A DNA stretch of 64,000 bases. Origin: Wenjunlia tyrosinilytica (GTDB taxonomy: Bacteria > Actinomycetota > Actinomycetes > Streptomycetales > Streptomycetaceae). Shown in pieces: positions 7,570-49,331 of this stretch. A program made the translations under genes and the position numbers. The stretch is from assembly GCF_014646055.1 (NCBI RefSeq), contig NZ_BMMS01000021.1, forward strand, positions 1 through 64,000, written 5' to 3'. A model generated the notes under the pieces. It had not been told where the DNA came from and did no database searches. It saw only the letters and a list, made by a program, of their open reading frames with translations. How positions within the stretch are numbered: the stretch's first letter is position 1; the number at the start of each line of letters is the position of its first letter.

Positions 7570-7573
<4 letters not shown>

Positions 7574-9801
7574 TTGGCGCTCTCGTCCTTGCCGCCGTCG
7601 GACGCGTCCTTCTCGCCGTCCTCGCCCTCGATCACGGGGATGAGGGACAGCTTGCCGCGCTGGTCGATCTCGGCGATCTCGACCTGCACCTTGCTGCCGA
7701 CCGAGACGACGTCGTCGACGTTCTCCACACGCTTGCCGCCGGCGAGCTTGCGCAGCTGCGAGATGTGGAGCAGGCCGTCCTTGCCCGGGAGCAGGGAGAC
7801 GAACGCGCCGAACGTCGTGGTCTTGACGACCGTGCCCAGGTAGCGCTCGCCGACCTCGGGCATCGTCGGGTTGGCGATGCCGTTGATCGTGGTGCGGGCG
7901 GCCTCGGCGGACGGACCGTCGACGGCGCCGATGTAGATGGTGCCGTCGTCCTCGATGGTGATGTCCGCGCCGGTGTCCTCCTGGATCTGGTTGATCATCT
8001 TGCCCTTGGGGCCGATGACCTCGCCGATCTTGTCCACCGGGATCTTGATGGTGATGATCCGGGGGGCGTTGGGGGACATCTCGTCCGGCGTGTCGATGGC
8101 TTCCATCATCACGTCGAGGATGTGCAGTCGCGCGTCGCGGGCCTGCTTGAGGGCCGCGGCGAGCACGGACGCCGGGATGCCGTCCAGCTTGGTGTCGAGC
8201 TGGAGGGCGGTCACGAACTGCTTGGTGCCGGCGACCTTGAAGTCCATGTCGCCGAACGCGTCCTCGGCGCCCAGGATGTCGGTGAGGGCGACGTAGTGCG
8301 TCTCACCGTCGACCTGCTCCGAGATCAGGCCCATGGCGATACCGGCGACGGGTGCCTTCAGCGGCACACCGGCGTTCAGCAGCGACATGGTGGAGGCGCA
8401 GACCGAGCCCATCGACGTGGAGCCGTTGGAGCCGAGCGCCTCGGAGACCTGGCGGATCGCGTAGGGGAACTCCTCGCGGGTCGGCAGGACGGGCAGGATC
8501 GCCCGCTCGGCCAGCGCGCCGTGGCCGATCTCGCGGCGCTTGGGCGAACCCACGCGGCCGGTCTCGCCGACCGAGTAGGGCGGGAAGTTGTAATTGTGCA
8601 TGTAGCGCTTGCGCGTCTCGGGCGCCAGCGTGTCGAGCTGCTGCTCCATGCGGAGCATGTTCAGCGTGGAGACACCGAGGATCTGGGTCTCGCCGCGCTC
8701 GAACAGGGCGGAACCGTGGACACGCGGGACGACCTCGACCTCGGCGGCCAGCGTGCGGATGTCGGTGACACCGCGGCCGTCGATGCGGACCTTGTCCTTG
8801 ATGACGCGCTCGCGCACGAGCTTCTTCGTCAGGGCGCGGTACGCGGCCGAGATCTCCTTCTCGCGGCCCTCGAACTGCGGGAGCAGCTTCTCGGCGGCGA
8901 GATTCTTCACCCGGTCGAGCTCGGCCTCACGGGCCTGCTTGCCCGCAATGGTGAGGGCCTGCTTGAGCTCGTCGGTGATCGCGGCCTCGAGGGCCTCGAA
9001 CACGTCGTCCTGGTAGTCCAGGAAGCGCGGGAACTCGCCGGTCGGCTTGGCGGCCTTGGCGGCGAGGTCGGCCTGGGCCTTGCACAGAACCTTGATGAAG
9101 GGCTTCGACGCCTCGAGACCGGCGGCGACGACCTCCTCGGTCGGCGCCTCGGCACCGCCCTCGACGAGCTTGATCGTCTTGTCGGTGGCCTCGGCCTCGA
9201 CCATCATGATCGCGACGTCGCCGTCCTCGAGCGCACGGCCGGCGACGACCATGTCGAAGACGGCCTCCTGGAGCTCGCTGTGGGTCGGGAACGCCACCCA
9301 CTGGCCCTTGATCAGGGCGACGCGGACGCCGCCGATCGGGCCGGAGAACGGCAGGCCGGCCAGCTGCGTGGACGCGGAGGCCGCGTTGATCGCGACGACG
9401 TCGTACAGGTGATCGGGGTTGAGCGCCATGATCGTGGCGACGACCTGGATCTCGTTGCGCAGGCCCTTGGCGAAGGACGGGCGCAGCGGGCGGTCGATCA
9501 GGCGGCACGTGAGGACGGCGTCCTCGGACGGGCGGCCCTCACGGCGGAAGAAGGAACCGGGGATGCGGCCCGCGGCGTACATCCGCTCCTCGACGTCCAC
9601 CGTGAGCGGGAAGAAGTCGAGCTGGTCCTTGGGGTGCTTCGAGGCGGTGGTGGCCGACAGGACCATGGTCTCGTCGTCCAGGTAGGCCACGGCGGAACCG
9701 GCGGCCTGGCGGGCCAGACGGCCGGTCTCGAAGCGGATGGTGCGGGTGCCGAAGGCGCCGTTGTCGATGACGGCTTCGGCATAGTGGGTCTCGTTCTCCA
9801 C
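7570..9801 (-). CDS. pnp: Polynucleotide phosphorylase
   Basis: Phosphorolytic 3'-5' exoribonuclease and polyadenylating enzyme of mRNA turnover; the Streptomyces enzyme was first described as guanosine pentaphosphate synthetase. Two RNase PH-like halves are followed by a KH domain ([12 protein letters not shown]) and an S1 domain ([12 protein letters not shown]) near the C-terminus, then an acidic tail. The GTG at 9801, preceded by AAGGAG, gives 743 residues, close to the usual length. The upstream open frame is not conserved-looking. It follows rpsO with a long structured leader and overlaps the M16 gene by 4 bases. Confidence 0.96.
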
Positions 9802-10044
9802 CAGGAAAATCTCCTTGTTTCCATCCTGGTCCCGCTGGGGGATCCAGGATCGTGGCGGAGCGTCCCCGCTTGCCGGCTTGCGGCTCCGTCCGGGCCGGTC
9901 TTCGATCGAAGCCTCCGGGATCTCGCACGGTTGCACGACACCCGGGGGCCACTACCGAGGACCGGCGCCTCCTGGCACCGACACTGGCGGTTGCGGACGC
10001 CCCTCCTCTTCTTTGGGACTCTTCTTTTGATCTGTTGATCTTGT

Positions 10045-43812: not shown

Positions 43813-45375
43813 CTACGAGTTGGAGCAGGCACGCAGGGCGAGCCACAGCTCCATGCGCACATCGGCGTCGTCGAGGGAGCGGCCGAGCAGTTCCTCGACA
43901 CGGCGCATGCGGTAGCGCAGGGTGTGCCGGTGCACTCCGAGGTCGGCCGCGGCGGCGTCCCACTGGCCGTGGTGGGACAGCCAGGCGTTCAAAGAGGCGA
44001 CGAGGTCCCCGCGCGAGGTGGCGTCGTGGTCGCGCAGGGGGCGCAGGAGGCCGTCGGCGAAGGCGCGGACCGCGTCACCGTGCAGAAGCGGGAGGACGGA
44101 GCCGGTGCCGACCTCGTCGTGGCCGACGAACGCCCGCGCTCGGCGAAGGGCCACGGCCAAGGCTCTTTCGGCCTGTTCATGGGCGGTGGCGGCCTGGTCG
44201 GGGGGCAGGGCGGCGGACATGCCCACGGCGATGCCCTCGGCGTCGTCGGTGTGGGCGACACAGGCGCGGTGCACCGCTCCCCCGTCGGCGGCCAGAACGG
44301 TGAGCCGGTGGTCGCCGCGCACCAGCAGGGCGGGCTCGGCGGCGCGGGCGGCGGTGTTGTCGAGGTGGTCGCCGAGGGCGGCGAGCGGGTCGCGGGCTCC
44401 GGAGGGGTTGGGTCCGGGCTCCGCGATGAACAGGCGCGCGGGGGCGCCGGCATCGAACAGCGTGCCGTAGAGCCGCTCGGCGACGGCGCGGGCGTGCACG
44501 GCCTCCCCGGCGAGCAGCATGCGCAGGAGCGCGGCGCCGAGCCGTTCCCCGGCCTGCTGAAGGGTGCGCGACTGCTCGAGGGCGAGTGTCAGCAGGGCGG
44601 CGGCGGAGTGGACGACGTAGCGCTGACTGGTGGTCAGGCGCTGCTCGGTGCCGACGGCGAGGAACCCGCGGGGGCGGCGGCCCGCCCCCAGGGACTGGAG
44701 CTCCACGCAGTCGGTGGCGTCCTCGCTGTCCCCGGCGGGCTCCTGGACGGCCGCGGCGGAAGGGGCGGGGCGGTCGCGAAGCCGTTCCACCTCGGCGGTG
44801 AGCCGCTCGACCCGGCGGCCGGCCCAGTCGGGGGCGGCGTGCACGACCTGGCCGGCGGCATCGTAGAGCGCGGCCCAACCGTCGAGCCGCTGGGCGAGCC
44901 GACGCAGCATCGCGGCGGTGCCGTCCTTGCCGAGGGCGGCGCGGGTGAGCTCCTGCTGTGCCTCGTAGGTGGTGGTGACGGCCTTGTACTGCTCGGCGGC
45001 CAGCGCGGCGGAGACCGCCTTGCTGATGGCGATGAACGGGGTGGGCTGCGGAACCTCGAGCAGCGGCAACCCCCGCTCGGCGGCGGCCTGGACGATGGGC
45101 TCGGGCACCCGCTCGTGGGTGAGCCCGATGCCGACCCCGAGCCCGACGACTCCGGCGTCGGCGAGGCGGTGGACATAGGCCCTCAGGGACTCGGGATCGG
45201 GAGCGAACTTGATCCCGGTGGTCAGCAGGAGCTCCCCGCCTTCGAGAAAAGGCGCCGGATCGTCGAGCTCACTGGTGTGCACCCACCGCACGGGAGCGTC
45301 GAGCCGCTCCCCGCCCGCCAGAACGGTGAGGCGGAGCGCGGGAGCACGAACAAGCGAGGCGAGCGTGGGAGGCAT
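43813..45375 (-). CDS. PucR family transcriptional regulator
   Basis: The 520-residue protein has the N-terminal purine catabolism regulator-like sensor (RWVHTSELDDPAPFLEGGEL) and a central GGDEF-like region. The C-terminal PucR helix-turn-helix is AADLGVHRHTLRYRMRRVEELLG (shown here as AADLGVHRHTL then RYRMRRVEELLG). Ligand and targets are unknown; location next to the aldehyde dehydrogenase suggests control of that gene. It is a paralogue of the regulator at 59976. Confidence 0.92.
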   Translation of the reverse strand: MPPTLASLVRAPALRLTVLAGGERLDAPVRWVHTSELDDPAPFLEGGELLLTTGIKFAPDPESLRAYVHRLADAGVVGLGVGIGLTHERVPEPIVQAAAERGLPLLEVPQPTPFIAISKAVSAALAAEQYKAVTTTYEAQQELTRAALGKDGTAAMLRRLAQRLDGWAALYDAAGQVVHAAPDWAGRRVERLTAEVERLRDRPAPSAAAVQEPAGDSEDATDCVELQSLGAGRRPRGFLAVGTEQRLTTSQRYVVHSAAALLTLALEQSRTLQQAGERLGAALLRMLLAGEAVHARAVAERLYGTLFDAGAPARLFIAEPGPNPSGARDPLAALGDHLDNTAARAAEPALLVRGDHRLTVLAADGGAVHRACVAHTDDAEGIAVGMSAALPPDQAATAHEQAERALAVALRRARAFVGHDEVGTGSVLPLLHGDAVRAFADGLLRPLRDHDATSRGDLVASLNAWLSHHGQWDAAAADLGVHRHTLRYRMRRVEELLGRSLDDADVRMELWLALRACSNS

Positions 45376-45636: not shown

Positions 45637-47733
45637 CTACTCCAGCAAATTCACCAGGACCGGGGGGACATGCTCGCCGGAGGCGGTGGTCAGGGAGAGG
45701 ACGGCGTGGCCGGGGGGGACCGAGTGGGCGAGTTCGGAGGCGGACCAGCGTTCGCGTTCGACCTGGCGGACGGTGATGGACTCCGTGGTGGCAGCCTCGC
45801 CGGTGACGAGCTTGCGGGCGAGGCGCAGGCCGCGGCGCAGGGCGCCGCCCGAGCGGTCCGGGGTGCGGGTGACCGCGCTCTCGTCCACCCAGGTGGTGCC
45901 CCAGGCCTCGGCGAAGCGCTTGCCGTCCCAGGTGGTCACTCCGGACAGCGCCATCTGGCAGCCGACCGCCCCCAGCAGCGCCGTGCGCAGTGACTCGGGA
46001 ACGTCGTCGAGGGTGCGCAGGCCCAGCACGACGCCGGCGTTGCCGGAGCGCAGCCGTTGCAGATCGCGGACGGTCTGCGCGGAGACGGCGTGCGCCGCGT
46101 CGTCCAGGACCAGGCAGGTGAACAGGGAGCGGTCGGCGCGGGCCGCCACCGACGCGGCGAACTGCGCCAGCACCAGCCGGGCGATGATCCGGCACGCCTC
46201 GGCGTGGGCACGTGCGGGCAGGGCGATACGGACCCGCAAGGGGTGTTCCAGCGCCCGCAGGGAGAAGGGGCGGCCGCGGCCGGAGACGTCGAAGAACCCG
46301 GCGAAGGCCGGCCGGGTCAGCAGGGCGACCCGGTCGGCCAGCAGGGGCCCCACGTCGTCGGGTCGCCCGTGCAGCCGCCGGCGGGCGTCGAGTTCGCGCT
46401 GGTGGCCGTGGGCGCCCGCCTCGTCCAGCGCCTCACGGAGCATGGCGAGGGCGGTCGGGGTGCCGTCGAGCAGTTCCCGCAGCTCGCTGACCGCAGGGTA
46501 GCGGCCGTGGGCGGCGTGGAAGGGGCCGATCACCTGGCTGAGCGCGGTCTGCGCCCGGCGGCTGTCCACCTCGCCCTCGGGCAGCAGTGCCTCGGCCAGG
46601 CAGGCGGCGGCCTCGTCGGGATCCACGGCGCCGCCGTAGAGGTCGAGGTCGTAGGCGGATTCGGGGTCGCCGAGCGCGATGACGACATCGAAGGAGTCAT
46701 TCGGCCCGAGGTCGGCGTCGGCGCTGCCCACGGCGACCACGCAGGCGGTGCCGGACAGGGCTTGGAGGCACATCGCCTCCACGACGGGGCGGATGATCCG
46801 GCGGGTCTTGCCGGAGCCGGGCGGGCCGACGAGGAGGAGGGAGGTGCCGAGGAGCCCGGGGTCGAGGGCGATGCCCGCTCCGCGGTGGGCCCAGGGGTTC
46901 TTCTCCTGGTCGGGTGCGGCGCCGATGCGCACCTGCCGGGTGACCAGGTCGTGGCGTGCGGTGCGCACGGGCAGGTCGCGGCTGCCCGAGGGGTGGGCGC
47001 AGGCCCCGGCGCCGTGCCGGCGCACGGCCTCGACGAAGGCATGGGTGCGGTCGGGGCGCAGCTCGATGCCTTCCCAGGCACGGGTGAGGCGGGCGTAGTC
47101 GACGTCGTTCATGCGCCCGGCCCGCAACTCCGCATCGAGCCGCTCGGCCGCCTCGTACTGCCCCGCCTGCCTCAACCGCGGCCAGGCGGTGGGGGGAGAC
47201 TGCTGGTCATCCCCTTCCACCGGGGTGGAGGCGGTCGACATCTCCTCACCGAGGGGTTTGAGGAAGCGCCGGTAGATCTCACCCCAGCGCCCTGACCGCT
47301 TGAAGAGCGCGAGGATCAGGACGGCCGTGACCAGGTAGACGGTGTTGGAGACGAAGACGAACGAGGTGTCGGTGGGCTGGAGGGAGTCCGGCGCGATCTT
47401 GAAGACGATCCACCACACCGGTCCTACGTCCTTGACCACCACGACCCACCACACGACGAAGGCAGCGATCAGGGACAGGACCGCTCCTCTGAGCAACTGC
47501 CGGTTCGATACCCGGTTCGGGTCGTACGGAGGTCTTGGGGTGTGGGCGTAGCCGAAGATGCCGGGGGCGGGGATGGCGCGTTTGGTGTGGGCCCAGGCGG
47601 CCACGTCGTTCTCGCGGTGGGCCGTCGGGGGGCGGCCCGGCATCGGGGGTGGGCCCGCCGGGGGCGGTACCGCCGGACGGGGGACCGGGCTCGCGTGTGT
47701 CTCCCGAGAGCCGTGGCTGCCGCCAGCGTCCAT
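45637..47733 (-). CDS. VirD4/FtsK-like membrane ATPase, orphan
   Basis: Function unknown. The roughly 698-residue product has a Pro-rich N-terminal tail and two membrane helices (about residues 80-105 and 125-145). A P-loop ATPase follows with Walker A GPPGSGKT (about residue 300) and a later LFTCLVLDDAAHAV (Walker B-like). The layout resembles type IV coupling or conjugation ATPases. No secretion partners lie nearby. The frame is open from 47949; I prefer the ATG at 47733 because GGAGGG lies about 10 bases upstream. It is divergent from gabT. Confidence 0.82.
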   Translation of the reverse strand: MDAGGSHGSRETHASPVPRPAVPPPAGPPPMPGRPPTAHRENDVAAWAHTKRAIPAPGIFGYAHTPRPPYDPNRVSNRQLLRGAVLSLIAAFVVWWVVVVKDVGPVWWIVFKIAPDSLQPTDTSFVFVSNTVYLVTAVLILALFKRSGRWGEIYRRFLKPLGEEMSTASTPVEGDDQQSPPTAWPRLRQAGQYEAAERLDAELRAGRMNDVDYARLTRAWEGIELRPDRTHAFVEAVRRHGAGACAHPSGSRDLPVRTARHDLVTRQVRIGAAPDQEKNPWAHRGAGIALDPGLLGTSLLLVGPPGSGKTRRIIRPVVEAMCLQALSGTACVVAVGSADADLGPNDSFDVVIALGDPESAYDLDLYGGAVDPDEAAACLAEALLPEGEVDSRRAQTALSQVIGPFHAAHGRYPAVSELRELLDGTPTALAMLREALDEAGAHGHQRELDARRRLHGRPDDVGPLLADRVALLTRPAFAGFFDVSGRGRPFSLRALEHPLRVRIALPARAHAEACRIIARLVLAQFAASVAARADRSLFTCLVLDDAAHAVSAQTVRDLQRLRSGNAGVVLGLRTLDDVPESLRTALLGAVGCQMALSGVTTWDGKRFAEAWGTTWVDESAVTRTPDRSGGALRRGLRLARKLVTGEAATTESITVRQVERERWSASELAHSVPPGHAVLSLTTASGEHVPPVLVNLLE

Positions 47734-47981
47734 CGCCCGTTGTCCCTCCGCACCCGTTCCCGCTCCGAACTGCGACTCAATGTAGTGGAGCGGCAACCCG
47801 CTGCCGAGGCCGCTCCCGCGTGTCGGACGCCACCGCGCGCTGTCCGCGGCGTCCAACTCCGTACCCGCCACTGCTACCGATCGGCGCATGCCTGTCCACC
47901 GCCACGCGCCGTAGCCTGCGGGAAAGACCGTCAATCCGCCCAGGCCCACCCAGCACCAGGCCCACCCACAGGAGTGCCCTC

Positions 47982-49331
47982 ATGACCGAGCTGCCCGGCG
48001 GCCCGTCGCTCCCCCAGGAGCGCCGCCTCGTCACCTCCATCCCCGGCCCGAAGTCGCAGGAACTGCTGGCCCGCAAGACCGCCGCGGTCGCCGCGGGTGT
48101 GGGTACGGTCCTGCCGGTGTTCGTCACGCGCGCCGGCGGCGGCGTGGTGGAGGACGTGGACGGCAACTCCCTGATCGACTTCGGTTCCGGCATCGCCGTG
48201 ACCTCGGTCGGCAACAGCGCCGGGGCCGTGGTGAAGCGTGCCGCCGAGCAGCTCGAGCGTTTCACCCACACCTGTTTCATGGTCACCCCCTACGAGGGCT
48301 ACGTGGCCGTGGCCGAGCAGCTCAACGAGCTCACCCCCGGGGACCACGAGAAGCGCTCCGCGCTGTTCAACTCCGGCGCCGAGGCCGTCGAGAACGCGGT
48401 GAAGATCGCCCGCGCGTACACCAAGCGCCAGGCCGTCGTCGTCTTCGACCACGGCTACCACGGCCGCACCAACCTCACGATGGCGCTGACGGCCAAGAAC
48501 ATGCCGTACAAGCACGGCTTCGGCCCGTTCGCCCCCGAGGTCTACCGGATGCCGCTGGCCTACCCCTACCGCTGGCTGACCGGCCCCGAGAACTGCGCCG
48601 AGGAGGCCGCGGCCCAGGCGATCGACCAGATCACCAAGCAGGTCGGCCCGGAGAACGTCGCCGCCATCGTCATCGAGCCCATCGCGGGTGAGGGCGGCTT
48701 CATCGAGCCGGCCAGGGGCTTCCTGCCGAGGATCGCCGAGTTCGCCGGGGACAACGGCATCGTCTTCGTCGCGGACGAGATCCAGACCGGTTTCTGCCGT
48801 ACCGGCGAGTGGTTCGCGTGCGAGGACGAGGGTGTCGTGCCCGACCTGATCACCACCGCCAAGGGCATCGCGGGCGGTCTGCCGCTCGCGGCCGTCACCG
48901 GCCGTGCCGAGATCATGGACGCCGCGCACGCGGGCGGCCTCGGCGGCACCTACGGCGGCAACCCGGTGGCCTGCGCCGCCGCGCTCGGCGCCATCGAGAC
49001 GATGCGCGAGCTGGACCTCAATGCGAAGGCCAAGCGCATCGAGGAGGTCATGAAGGGCCGCCTGCTGGCGCTCCAGGACAAGTTCGACGTGATCGGCGAC
49101 GTCCGCGGCCGTGGCGCGATGATCGCCATCGAGCTGGTCGAGCCGGGCACCAAGGACCCGAATCCGGCCGCGGCCGCCGCGCTCGCCAAGGCGTGCCACG
49201 CCGAGGGTGTCGTGGTGCTGACCGCGGGCACCTACGGCAACGTCCTGCGCTTCCTGCCGCCGCTCGTCATCCCCGAGGAGCTGCTGGTCGAGGGCCTGGA
49301 CATCCTCGAGAACGCCTTCAGCAACCTCTGA
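47982..49331 (+). CDS. gabT: 4-aminobutyrate aminotransferase
   Basis: PLP-dependent class III aminotransferase moving the amino group of GABA to 2-oxoglutarate. The 449-residue protein has FVADEIQTGFCRTG and the PLP lysine K294 in TTAKGIAGGLP. The ATG at 47982 has GGAG at 47971-47974. It is divergent from the VirD4-like gene and forms the core of the GABA/polyamine catabolic region with the flanking aldehyde dehydrogenases and importer. Confidence 0.93.
   Translation: MTELPGGPSLPQERRLVTSIPGPKSQELLARKTAAVAAGVGTVLPVFVTRAGGGVVEDVDGNSLIDFGSGIAVTSVGNSAGAVVKRAAEQLERFTHTCFMVTPYEGYVAVAEQLNELTPGDHEKRSALFNSGAEAVENAVKIARAYTKRQAVVVFDHGYHGRTNLTMALTAKNMPYKHGFGPFAPEVYRMPLAYPYRWLTGPENCAEEAAAQAIDQITKQVGPENVAAIVIEPIAGEGGFIEPARGFLPRIAEFAGDNGIVFVADEIQTGFCRTGEWFACEDEGVVPDLITTAKGIAGGLPLAAVTGRAEIMDAAHAGGLGGTYGGNPVACAAALGAIETMRELDLNAKAKRIEEVMKGRLLALQDKFDVIGDVRGRGAMIAIELVEPGTKDPNPAAAAALAKACHAEGVVVLTAGTYGNVLRFLPPLVIPEELLVEGLDILENAFSNL

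Follow-up and report, generated by a model that had tools for sequence, protein, structure and literature searches.

What does a membrane ATPase of the conjugation type do on a chromosome, beside genes for the use of 4-aminobutyrate (GABA)? This question is raised by a gene in the window, which here means the whole stretch of 64,000 nucleotides that was analysed. The first-pass annotation described the gene product as an orphan VirD4/FtsK-like P-loop membrane protein that might export substrates, act in hyphal DNA transfer, or be the remnant of an integrative element. The explanation favoured here, with modest confidence, is that the protein serves the chromosomally encoded Cmd machine as a membrane-anchored coupling subunit of the VirD4/TrwB type, encoded by a core gene of the window's family and a sister family.

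The gene, its neighbours and the predicted fold

The open frame spans positions 45637-47949 on the minus strand, and the ATG at 47733 agrees with the conserved N-terminus of the family. A chance frame is ruled out, as tens of genomes encode homologues that are 37-66% identical along most of the protein. The GC content of the gene is about that of its surroundings.

45637..47733, minus strand: gene for a predicted VirD4/TrwB-type coupling protein, 698 aa (open reading frame; model and fold search; family; SCO5677 counterpart by gene order)
47734..47981, no strand: 248 intergenic bases separating this gene from the divergent gabT (start codons located)
47982..49331, plus strand: gabT, 4-aminobutyrate transaminase, a neighbour outside the machine (NCBIfam; start located)
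43813..45375, minus strand: PucR-type regulator, downstream neighbour (Pfam PucR and HTH_30)

The regulator gene lies 261 bases downstream. No tRNA was found in the window with ARAGORN, and no relaxase, VirB or pilus protein among the twelve other window proteins scanned, which are metabolic, housekeeping or regulatory, one being without a match. Because relaxase and type IV secretion (T4SS) genes are absent among these twelve, the window protein was not classed as a conjugation protein. The word orphan holds locally but not elsewhere in the genome, where the cmd operon and tgdA are its likely partners. A gene at 7573-9936 considered for an FtsK identity is instead a polynucleotide phosphorylase.

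In Pfam and NCBIfam, no model reaches its cut-off on the window protein. Among 44 relatives, weak matches to coupling-protein models were obtained for TraG-D_C (6/44) and TrwB_AAD_bind (3/44), both at E 0.1 or better, and for T4SS-DNA_transf (three), as well as to DUF87 (HerA; three), and six relatives carry DUF2510. No meaningful match came up when the PDB was searched by sequence with the window protein, its profile and one relative from the family f21, and PHROGs gave nothing beyond weak matches. The window protein has no match in PADLOC; as a separate observation, mad8 of the MADS defence system matches 14 of the 44 relatives (best E 5.8e-12), which hints that mad8 may be distantly akin to this protein family.

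The structural model, predicted from the 44 relatives, has a pLDDT of 89 and a pTM of 0.85. Foldseek placed TrwB first (E 6.7e-12), followed by Cag-beta and then HerA. Against TrwB of R388 (PDB 1e9s), VIA gave a Z of 28.2 over 363 residues, with an rmsd of 3.1 and about 15% identity. Lower scores were obtained for DndH-C (24.3), the Legionella pneumophila T4CC (23.3), VirB4 (23.3) and HerA (20.8), and the lowest for FtsK (16.5), TcpA (15.9) and EccC (15.2). The window protein is thus predicted to have the VirD4/TrwB coupling-protein fold. The earlier description as a VirD4-like P-loop membrane protein is borne out, with a real reading frame, TrwB as best fold match and a Walker A motif; its FtsK part has to be narrowed, as FtsK and EccC, both well below TrwB, belong to the same superfamily but stand further off. 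An identity as FtsK, TcpA or EccC was rejected on these scores. TraB, also proposed for comparison, does not appear in the fold-match lists shown, and the rejection covers FtsK, TcpA and EccC.

47437..47505, minus strand: predicted membrane helix 1, residues 77-99 (helix in the model and hydrophobic sequence)
47290..47370, minus strand: predicted membrane helix 2, residues 122-148 (helix in the model and hydrophobic sequence)
46804..46827, minus strand: Walker A GPPGSGKT, residues 303-310 (Lys309 in 27/36 f1 and 13/13 f3 genomes)
46291..46620, minus strand: predicted all-helical insert of the nucleotide-binding domain, residues ~372-481 (model; region covered by the TrwB alignment)
46096..46122, minus strand: Walker B strand with Asp544-Asp545 (Asp545 in 99/102 aligned family members)
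46015..46017, minus strand: Arg573 at the position of the Gln in TrwB GLQST (Arg in 101/102 family members)

The two long hydrophobic helices form a putative N-terminal membrane anchor, and the helical insert occupies the place of the TrwB all-alpha domain. The Walker A motif is intact. In the Walker B sequence LVLDD (residues 541-545), the second Asp stands where TrwB has Glu (DE), and Arg replaces Gln further on. These positions vary between the window's family (f1, taken as Streptomycetaceae from its named relatives) and a sister family (f3, assigned to Catenulisporaceae by a guess made partly from kinship). Of the 36 f1 genomes with the gene, 27 have Lys at residue 309, seven Glu and two Arg; 33 have Asp at residue 545, and 35 have Arg at residue 573. 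In the 13 readable f3 genomes, residue 309 is always Lys and residue 573 always Gln, and residue 545 is Asp in nine and Glu in four. All 72 named loci of the alignment, which are the closest relatives of the window protein, have Lys309.

Distribution, synteny and mobile relatives

Among 61 genomes, the gene was matched in 36/37 of f1, 0/1 of f2, 14/14 of f3 and 0/9 of the others; in one f3 genome (G051) the match is a C-terminal piece alone, at a contig edge. On GTDB contigs, 239 relatives were confirmed by a scan; the best 80 of the 239 belong nearly all to Streptomyces or close genera. A sample of 148 genomes of the class yielded 22 with a match, namely 11 of f1, eight of f21 (taken as Micromonosporaceae, likewise a guess made partly from kinship) and three weak ones; two f21 genomes (G069 and G150) had none. 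Genes were compared at 105 loci, many of them cut by contig ends, with a simple purpose-built gene caller. The window protein was called in 95 of these, and the divergent gabT was the next called gene in 71 of the 95, so that the proposed check of synteny came out in favour of a conserved setting. Among f3 loci, the divergent gabT was seen at L111, L112, L114, L119 and L120.

This setting invites a function tied to the GABA or polyamine use of the neighbours, and a polyamine regulator is reported to bind the gabT promoter in Streptomyces coelicolor (PMC8998196). Such a function is nonetheless highly improbable. The fold suggests no such role, the neighbours differ for the f21 homologues, and the published mutants came from pigment and aerial-growth effects (PMC6585502).

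No internal stop codon was found among the matches listed. The dN/dS of the core is 0.10-0.30 within genera that lack Lys309 and 0.08-0.37 within genera that have it; it reaches 0.49-0.55 in pairs with one genome (G031) and is below 1 in all pairs measured. Judged by these ratios, the gene is still under selection, relaxed in G031. The VirD4 fold and relatives on nine plasmid records could be taken for the mark of an integrative or conjugative element, a remnant of which was retained by chance. This earlier suggestion has next to no probability left. Almost every genome of the family has the gene, mostly in a conserved gene order; it has no internal stop among those matches, shows dN/dS below 1 in all pairs measured and has in SCO5677 a probable counterpart with a published phenotype. 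It is a core chromosomal gene of f1 and f3, not a mobile remnant.

The plasmid neighbourhoods were examined for five of the nine records. Streptomyces plasmids, small or large (L156, L158 and L159), carry copies of the window gene with 47-53% identity, and the copy on L156 has no Walker A motif. Within a few genes of each copy lies a P-loop-like gene of 681-746 aa. Against AAA_10, that of L158 scores above the cut-off, that of L159, weakly TraB-like, below it, and that of L156 not at all; these genes were not counted as Cmd relatives.

The f21 homologues are found directly downstream of a same-strand M48 metalloprotease gene, which was called in five of six loci. The gaps are about -1 to +12 bases in L143, L144, L145 and L148, and the two genes overlap by 7 bases on a Saccharothrix plasmid (L155, 10663-13370) and by 4 bases on a Nocardiopsis plasmid (L157, 14898-17512). 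Pfam confirms M48 in L143, L148, L155 and L157. The M48-linked relatives (f21, L155 and L157) seem to be without membrane helices. These loci raise the alternative that the protein is an ATPase with a coupling or docking task for some other partner, for instance a membrane protease, and that its ancestral job may have been the handling of membrane or exported proteins. For the window gene this is regarded as unlikely: no M48 gene lies beside it in f1, and a single query without a positive control found no f21-type M48 relative in the window genome.

The cmd operon and hyphal development

The gabT gene of S. coelicolor is SCO5676, and SCO5679 encodes a semialdehyde dehydrogenase (PMC8998196); the window gene corresponds by gene order to SCO5677, of which it is the probable counterpart. 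Overproduction of actinorhodin is published for insertion mutants of SCO5677 and equally for mutants in cmdBCDEF and in tgdA (Xu et al. 2019, PMC6585502), and all of these genes have a published tie to aerial hyphae (PMC6585502). In the literature found, SCO5677 is an unnamed ATP/GTP-binding membrane protein, and neither VirD4, VirB4 nor "type IV" is mentioned for it. The literature search found no link between VirD4 and Streptomyces aerial hyphae, most subscription papers being outside its reach. For the cmd cluster, poor sporulation was reported for a cmdB deletion and a wild-type appearance for a cmdA deletion (Xie et al. 2009, PMC2782261). The same study described segregation defects in cmd mutants, found transfer of an SLP2-derived plasmid unaffected by the cluster, and suggested a possible type-IV-like channel in sporulation. 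If the window gene is SCO5677, as gene order says, these published mutants support a role in mycelium and sporulation.

The cmd operon of the window genome is on another contig (L164), where a divergent SLT and NlpC/P60 gene is followed by cmdF, E, D, C, B and A, the names being assigned from gene order and from resemblance to the operon described in print. CmdC belongs to the SCO6880 family (179 bits, cut-off 60), and CmdB matches AAA_10 (43.7 bits, cut-off 27.5), with VirB4-type NCBIfam matches under their cut-offs. With these two, its membrane proteins and the nearby transglycosylase gene, the operon resembles those for plasmid transfer. Window gene and operon share a contig in the nine genomes measured, and there 0.5-2.3 Mb separate them. 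CmdC orthologues (at least 790 bits) are present in 37/37 genomes of f1, 1/1 of f2, 14/14 of f3 and one of f10 (G058), and CmdB keeps GESGNGKS in all 53 cmd-bearing genomes. The f21 genomes of the class sample have CmdC matches of 91 bits at most and no orthologue. Genomes of f20 often have a CmdC relative of ~100 bits, and one of them (L197, G190) carries a diverged operon with tgdA-, cmdD-, cmdC- and cmdB-like genes at 23-42% identity.

CmdA of the window genome exceeds the TraG-D_C cut-off (34.7 vs 22 bits), and its model (pLDDT 85, pTM 0.68) aligns to TrwB with a Z of 27.6 over 331 residues (rmsd 4.5). On this model, CmdA is a second VirD4-like protein; it shares 27% identity with the window protein over a short stretch. 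In the 53 cmd-bearing genomes, CmdA is long in 27 and shortened in six (about 120-130 matched residues), cmdA is absent after cmdB in 18 (four of f1 and 14/14 of f3), and in two (G023 and G058) its state is obscured by contig ends. The Walker A motif is missing from 26 of the 27 long CmdAs, the exception being that of the window genome (L164, 9237-11051, plus strand). At the second Walker B residue 22 have Asp, three Asn and two Gln, and in every one of the 27 Arg stands in the place of the Gln, a replacement thus found in both VirD4-like proteins of the window's family. From its motifs, CmdA looks like a pseudo-ATPase. Its predicted VirD4 fold and its Walker A loss are new here, as CmdA was earlier described as a membrane protein only.

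A further VirD4-like gene of the window genome (L165, contig C36, 13816-16803, minus strand) belongs to another T4SS-like cluster and scores above the TraG-D_C cut-off. By eye, an intein-like stretch seems to split its Walker A motif; no Pfam intein model was matched at E 0.001.

Plasmid-transfer machines possess a VirD4 coupling subunit. By content and order, Cmd (the VirB4-like CmdB, CmdC-F and the transglycosylase TgdA) would be a machine for plasmid transfer that has been put to developmental use. In aerial or sporulating hyphae, the window protein would receive a substrate, either chromosomal DNA or a protein, and pass it to a membrane channel powered by CmdB. It would have taken over, or would share, the coupling role of CmdA, since the nucleotide site of CmdA is mostly lost, the P-loop of the window protein is mostly kept, and cmd in f3 is without cmdA. 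It is also the better candidate for a working subunit because CmdA resembles a pseudo-ATPase and because no visible change was published for the strain deleted for cmdA. In f3, no cmdA follows cmdB in 14/14 genomes, while the motifs of the window gene are intact in 13/13 readable ones. Two genomes (G014 and G035) are without cmdA after cmdB and, in a search that covered PF12696, without any genome match to this model; their window gene keeps the Lys.

We infer the Cmd partnership and the substrate, and the shared phenotype in print, the fold and the layout of the cmd operon were counted for the partnership. The shared phenotype of the SCO5677, cmdBCDEF and tgdA mutants could be indirect. Against the partnership stand three genomes with cmd and without the window gene (G033, G037 and G058), and the f21 relatives beside an M48 protease, which have no CmdC orthologue. 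So do other coupling-type genes, which PF12696 matched in 10 of the 12 genomes examined with it, CmdA included where present. Of the nine f1 genomes (out of 36) without Lys309, seven also have CmdA shortened or missing (G002, G005, G015, G018, G020, G028 and G030), from which it follows that an active VirD4 motor is dispensable in some cases.

Window gene and cmd are both nearly universal in f1 and f3, with exceptions in both directions; the presence patterns follow phylogeny and, by simple frequencies, are not better than chance. On a quick tree of CmdB and CmdC, at least three changes account for the Lys309 losses and at least four for cmdA, and the linked decay of the two has no significance, as there are two independent pairs on well-supported branches (three in all). 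At least one of the two VirD4-like genes is present in 52 of the 53 cmd genomes, counting the G051 fragment, with G058 obscured; as ~1.5 exceptions are expected by chance, this gives no support.

A stand-alone DNA pump, which like FtsK/SpoIIIE would carry chromosomal DNA across the sporulation septa as they close, without Cmd, is considered unlikely. Its predicted membrane helices, a motor of the FtsK-HerA superfamily, the f21 relatives in genomes without cmd orthologues and the segregation defects of cmd mutants (PMC2782261) are consistent with it. The nearest fold, however, is a coupling protein and not FtsK, the phenotype is that of the cmdBCDEF and tgdA mutants (PMC6585502), and Lys309 is gone in 9/36 family genomes, a loss that a lone motor should not tolerate.

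The coupling subunit of Cmd stays the preferred reading, and a bolder, unlikely version of it is also put forward. Here the two VirD4-like proteins, the SCO5677 type and CmdA, would form a mixed, nucleotide-locked ring that serves as gate or dock, while CmdB powers the passage of chromosomal DNA or an envelope effector across the sporulation septa, as a domesticated type IV secretion machine inside the mycelium. Both proteins would have swapped Gln for Arg and mostly Glu for Asp, and would have lost ATP turnover to differing degrees.

Comparison with known systems

If the SCO5677 counterpart and CmdA are both of the VirD4 type, the former with a nucleotide site intact in most genomes and the latter with a site ruined in most, the missing coupling subunit of Cmd would be supplied. 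It also becomes a testable question whether a conjugation apparatus moves chromosomal DNA or proteins inside the sporulating mycelium. In addition, the pair would exemplify conserved coupling proteins that drift towards pseudo-ATPases.

The closest known system is TrwB/VirD4 (R388 TrwB, PDB 1e9s), with which the window protein has in common the N-terminal membrane-like helices, a P-loop domain with a helical insert and the top structural match. In contrast to TrwB, it is encoded by a chromosomal core gene with no relaxase or pilus genes nearby among the proteins scanned, the Walker B Glu is replaced by Asp and the Gln by Arg, and the Walker A Lys is lost in 9/36 family genomes. With FtsK/SpoIIIE, TcpA and EccC, the P-loop core of the FtsK-HerA superfamily is shared, at lower VIA scores.

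The cmdABCDEF cluster (PMC2782261) shows the same antibiotic overproduction and tie to aerial hyphae as SCO5677 and is kept in the same families. It differs in that the window gene is at a separate locus and that the cluster's own products include the VirB4-like CmdB and a further VirD4-like protein, CmdA. Operons in cmd-like order on plasmids (L257-L260) end with a TraM-recognition coupling gene and likewise combine a VirD4-like gene with VirB4-like and SCO6880-type genes. The positions of Glu and Gln are fixed by a sequence alignment of one plasmid homologue with TrwB (E 6.7e-5); six coupling homologues of such operons (those of L257-L260 and of L199 and L200 in other genomes) retain both residues, and five of the six have GKT, L200 having GKG. 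The coupling genes of L257-L260 thus differ from the window gene in being plasmid-borne, in adjoining the VirB4-like gene and in having Glu, Gln and GKT in 4/4.
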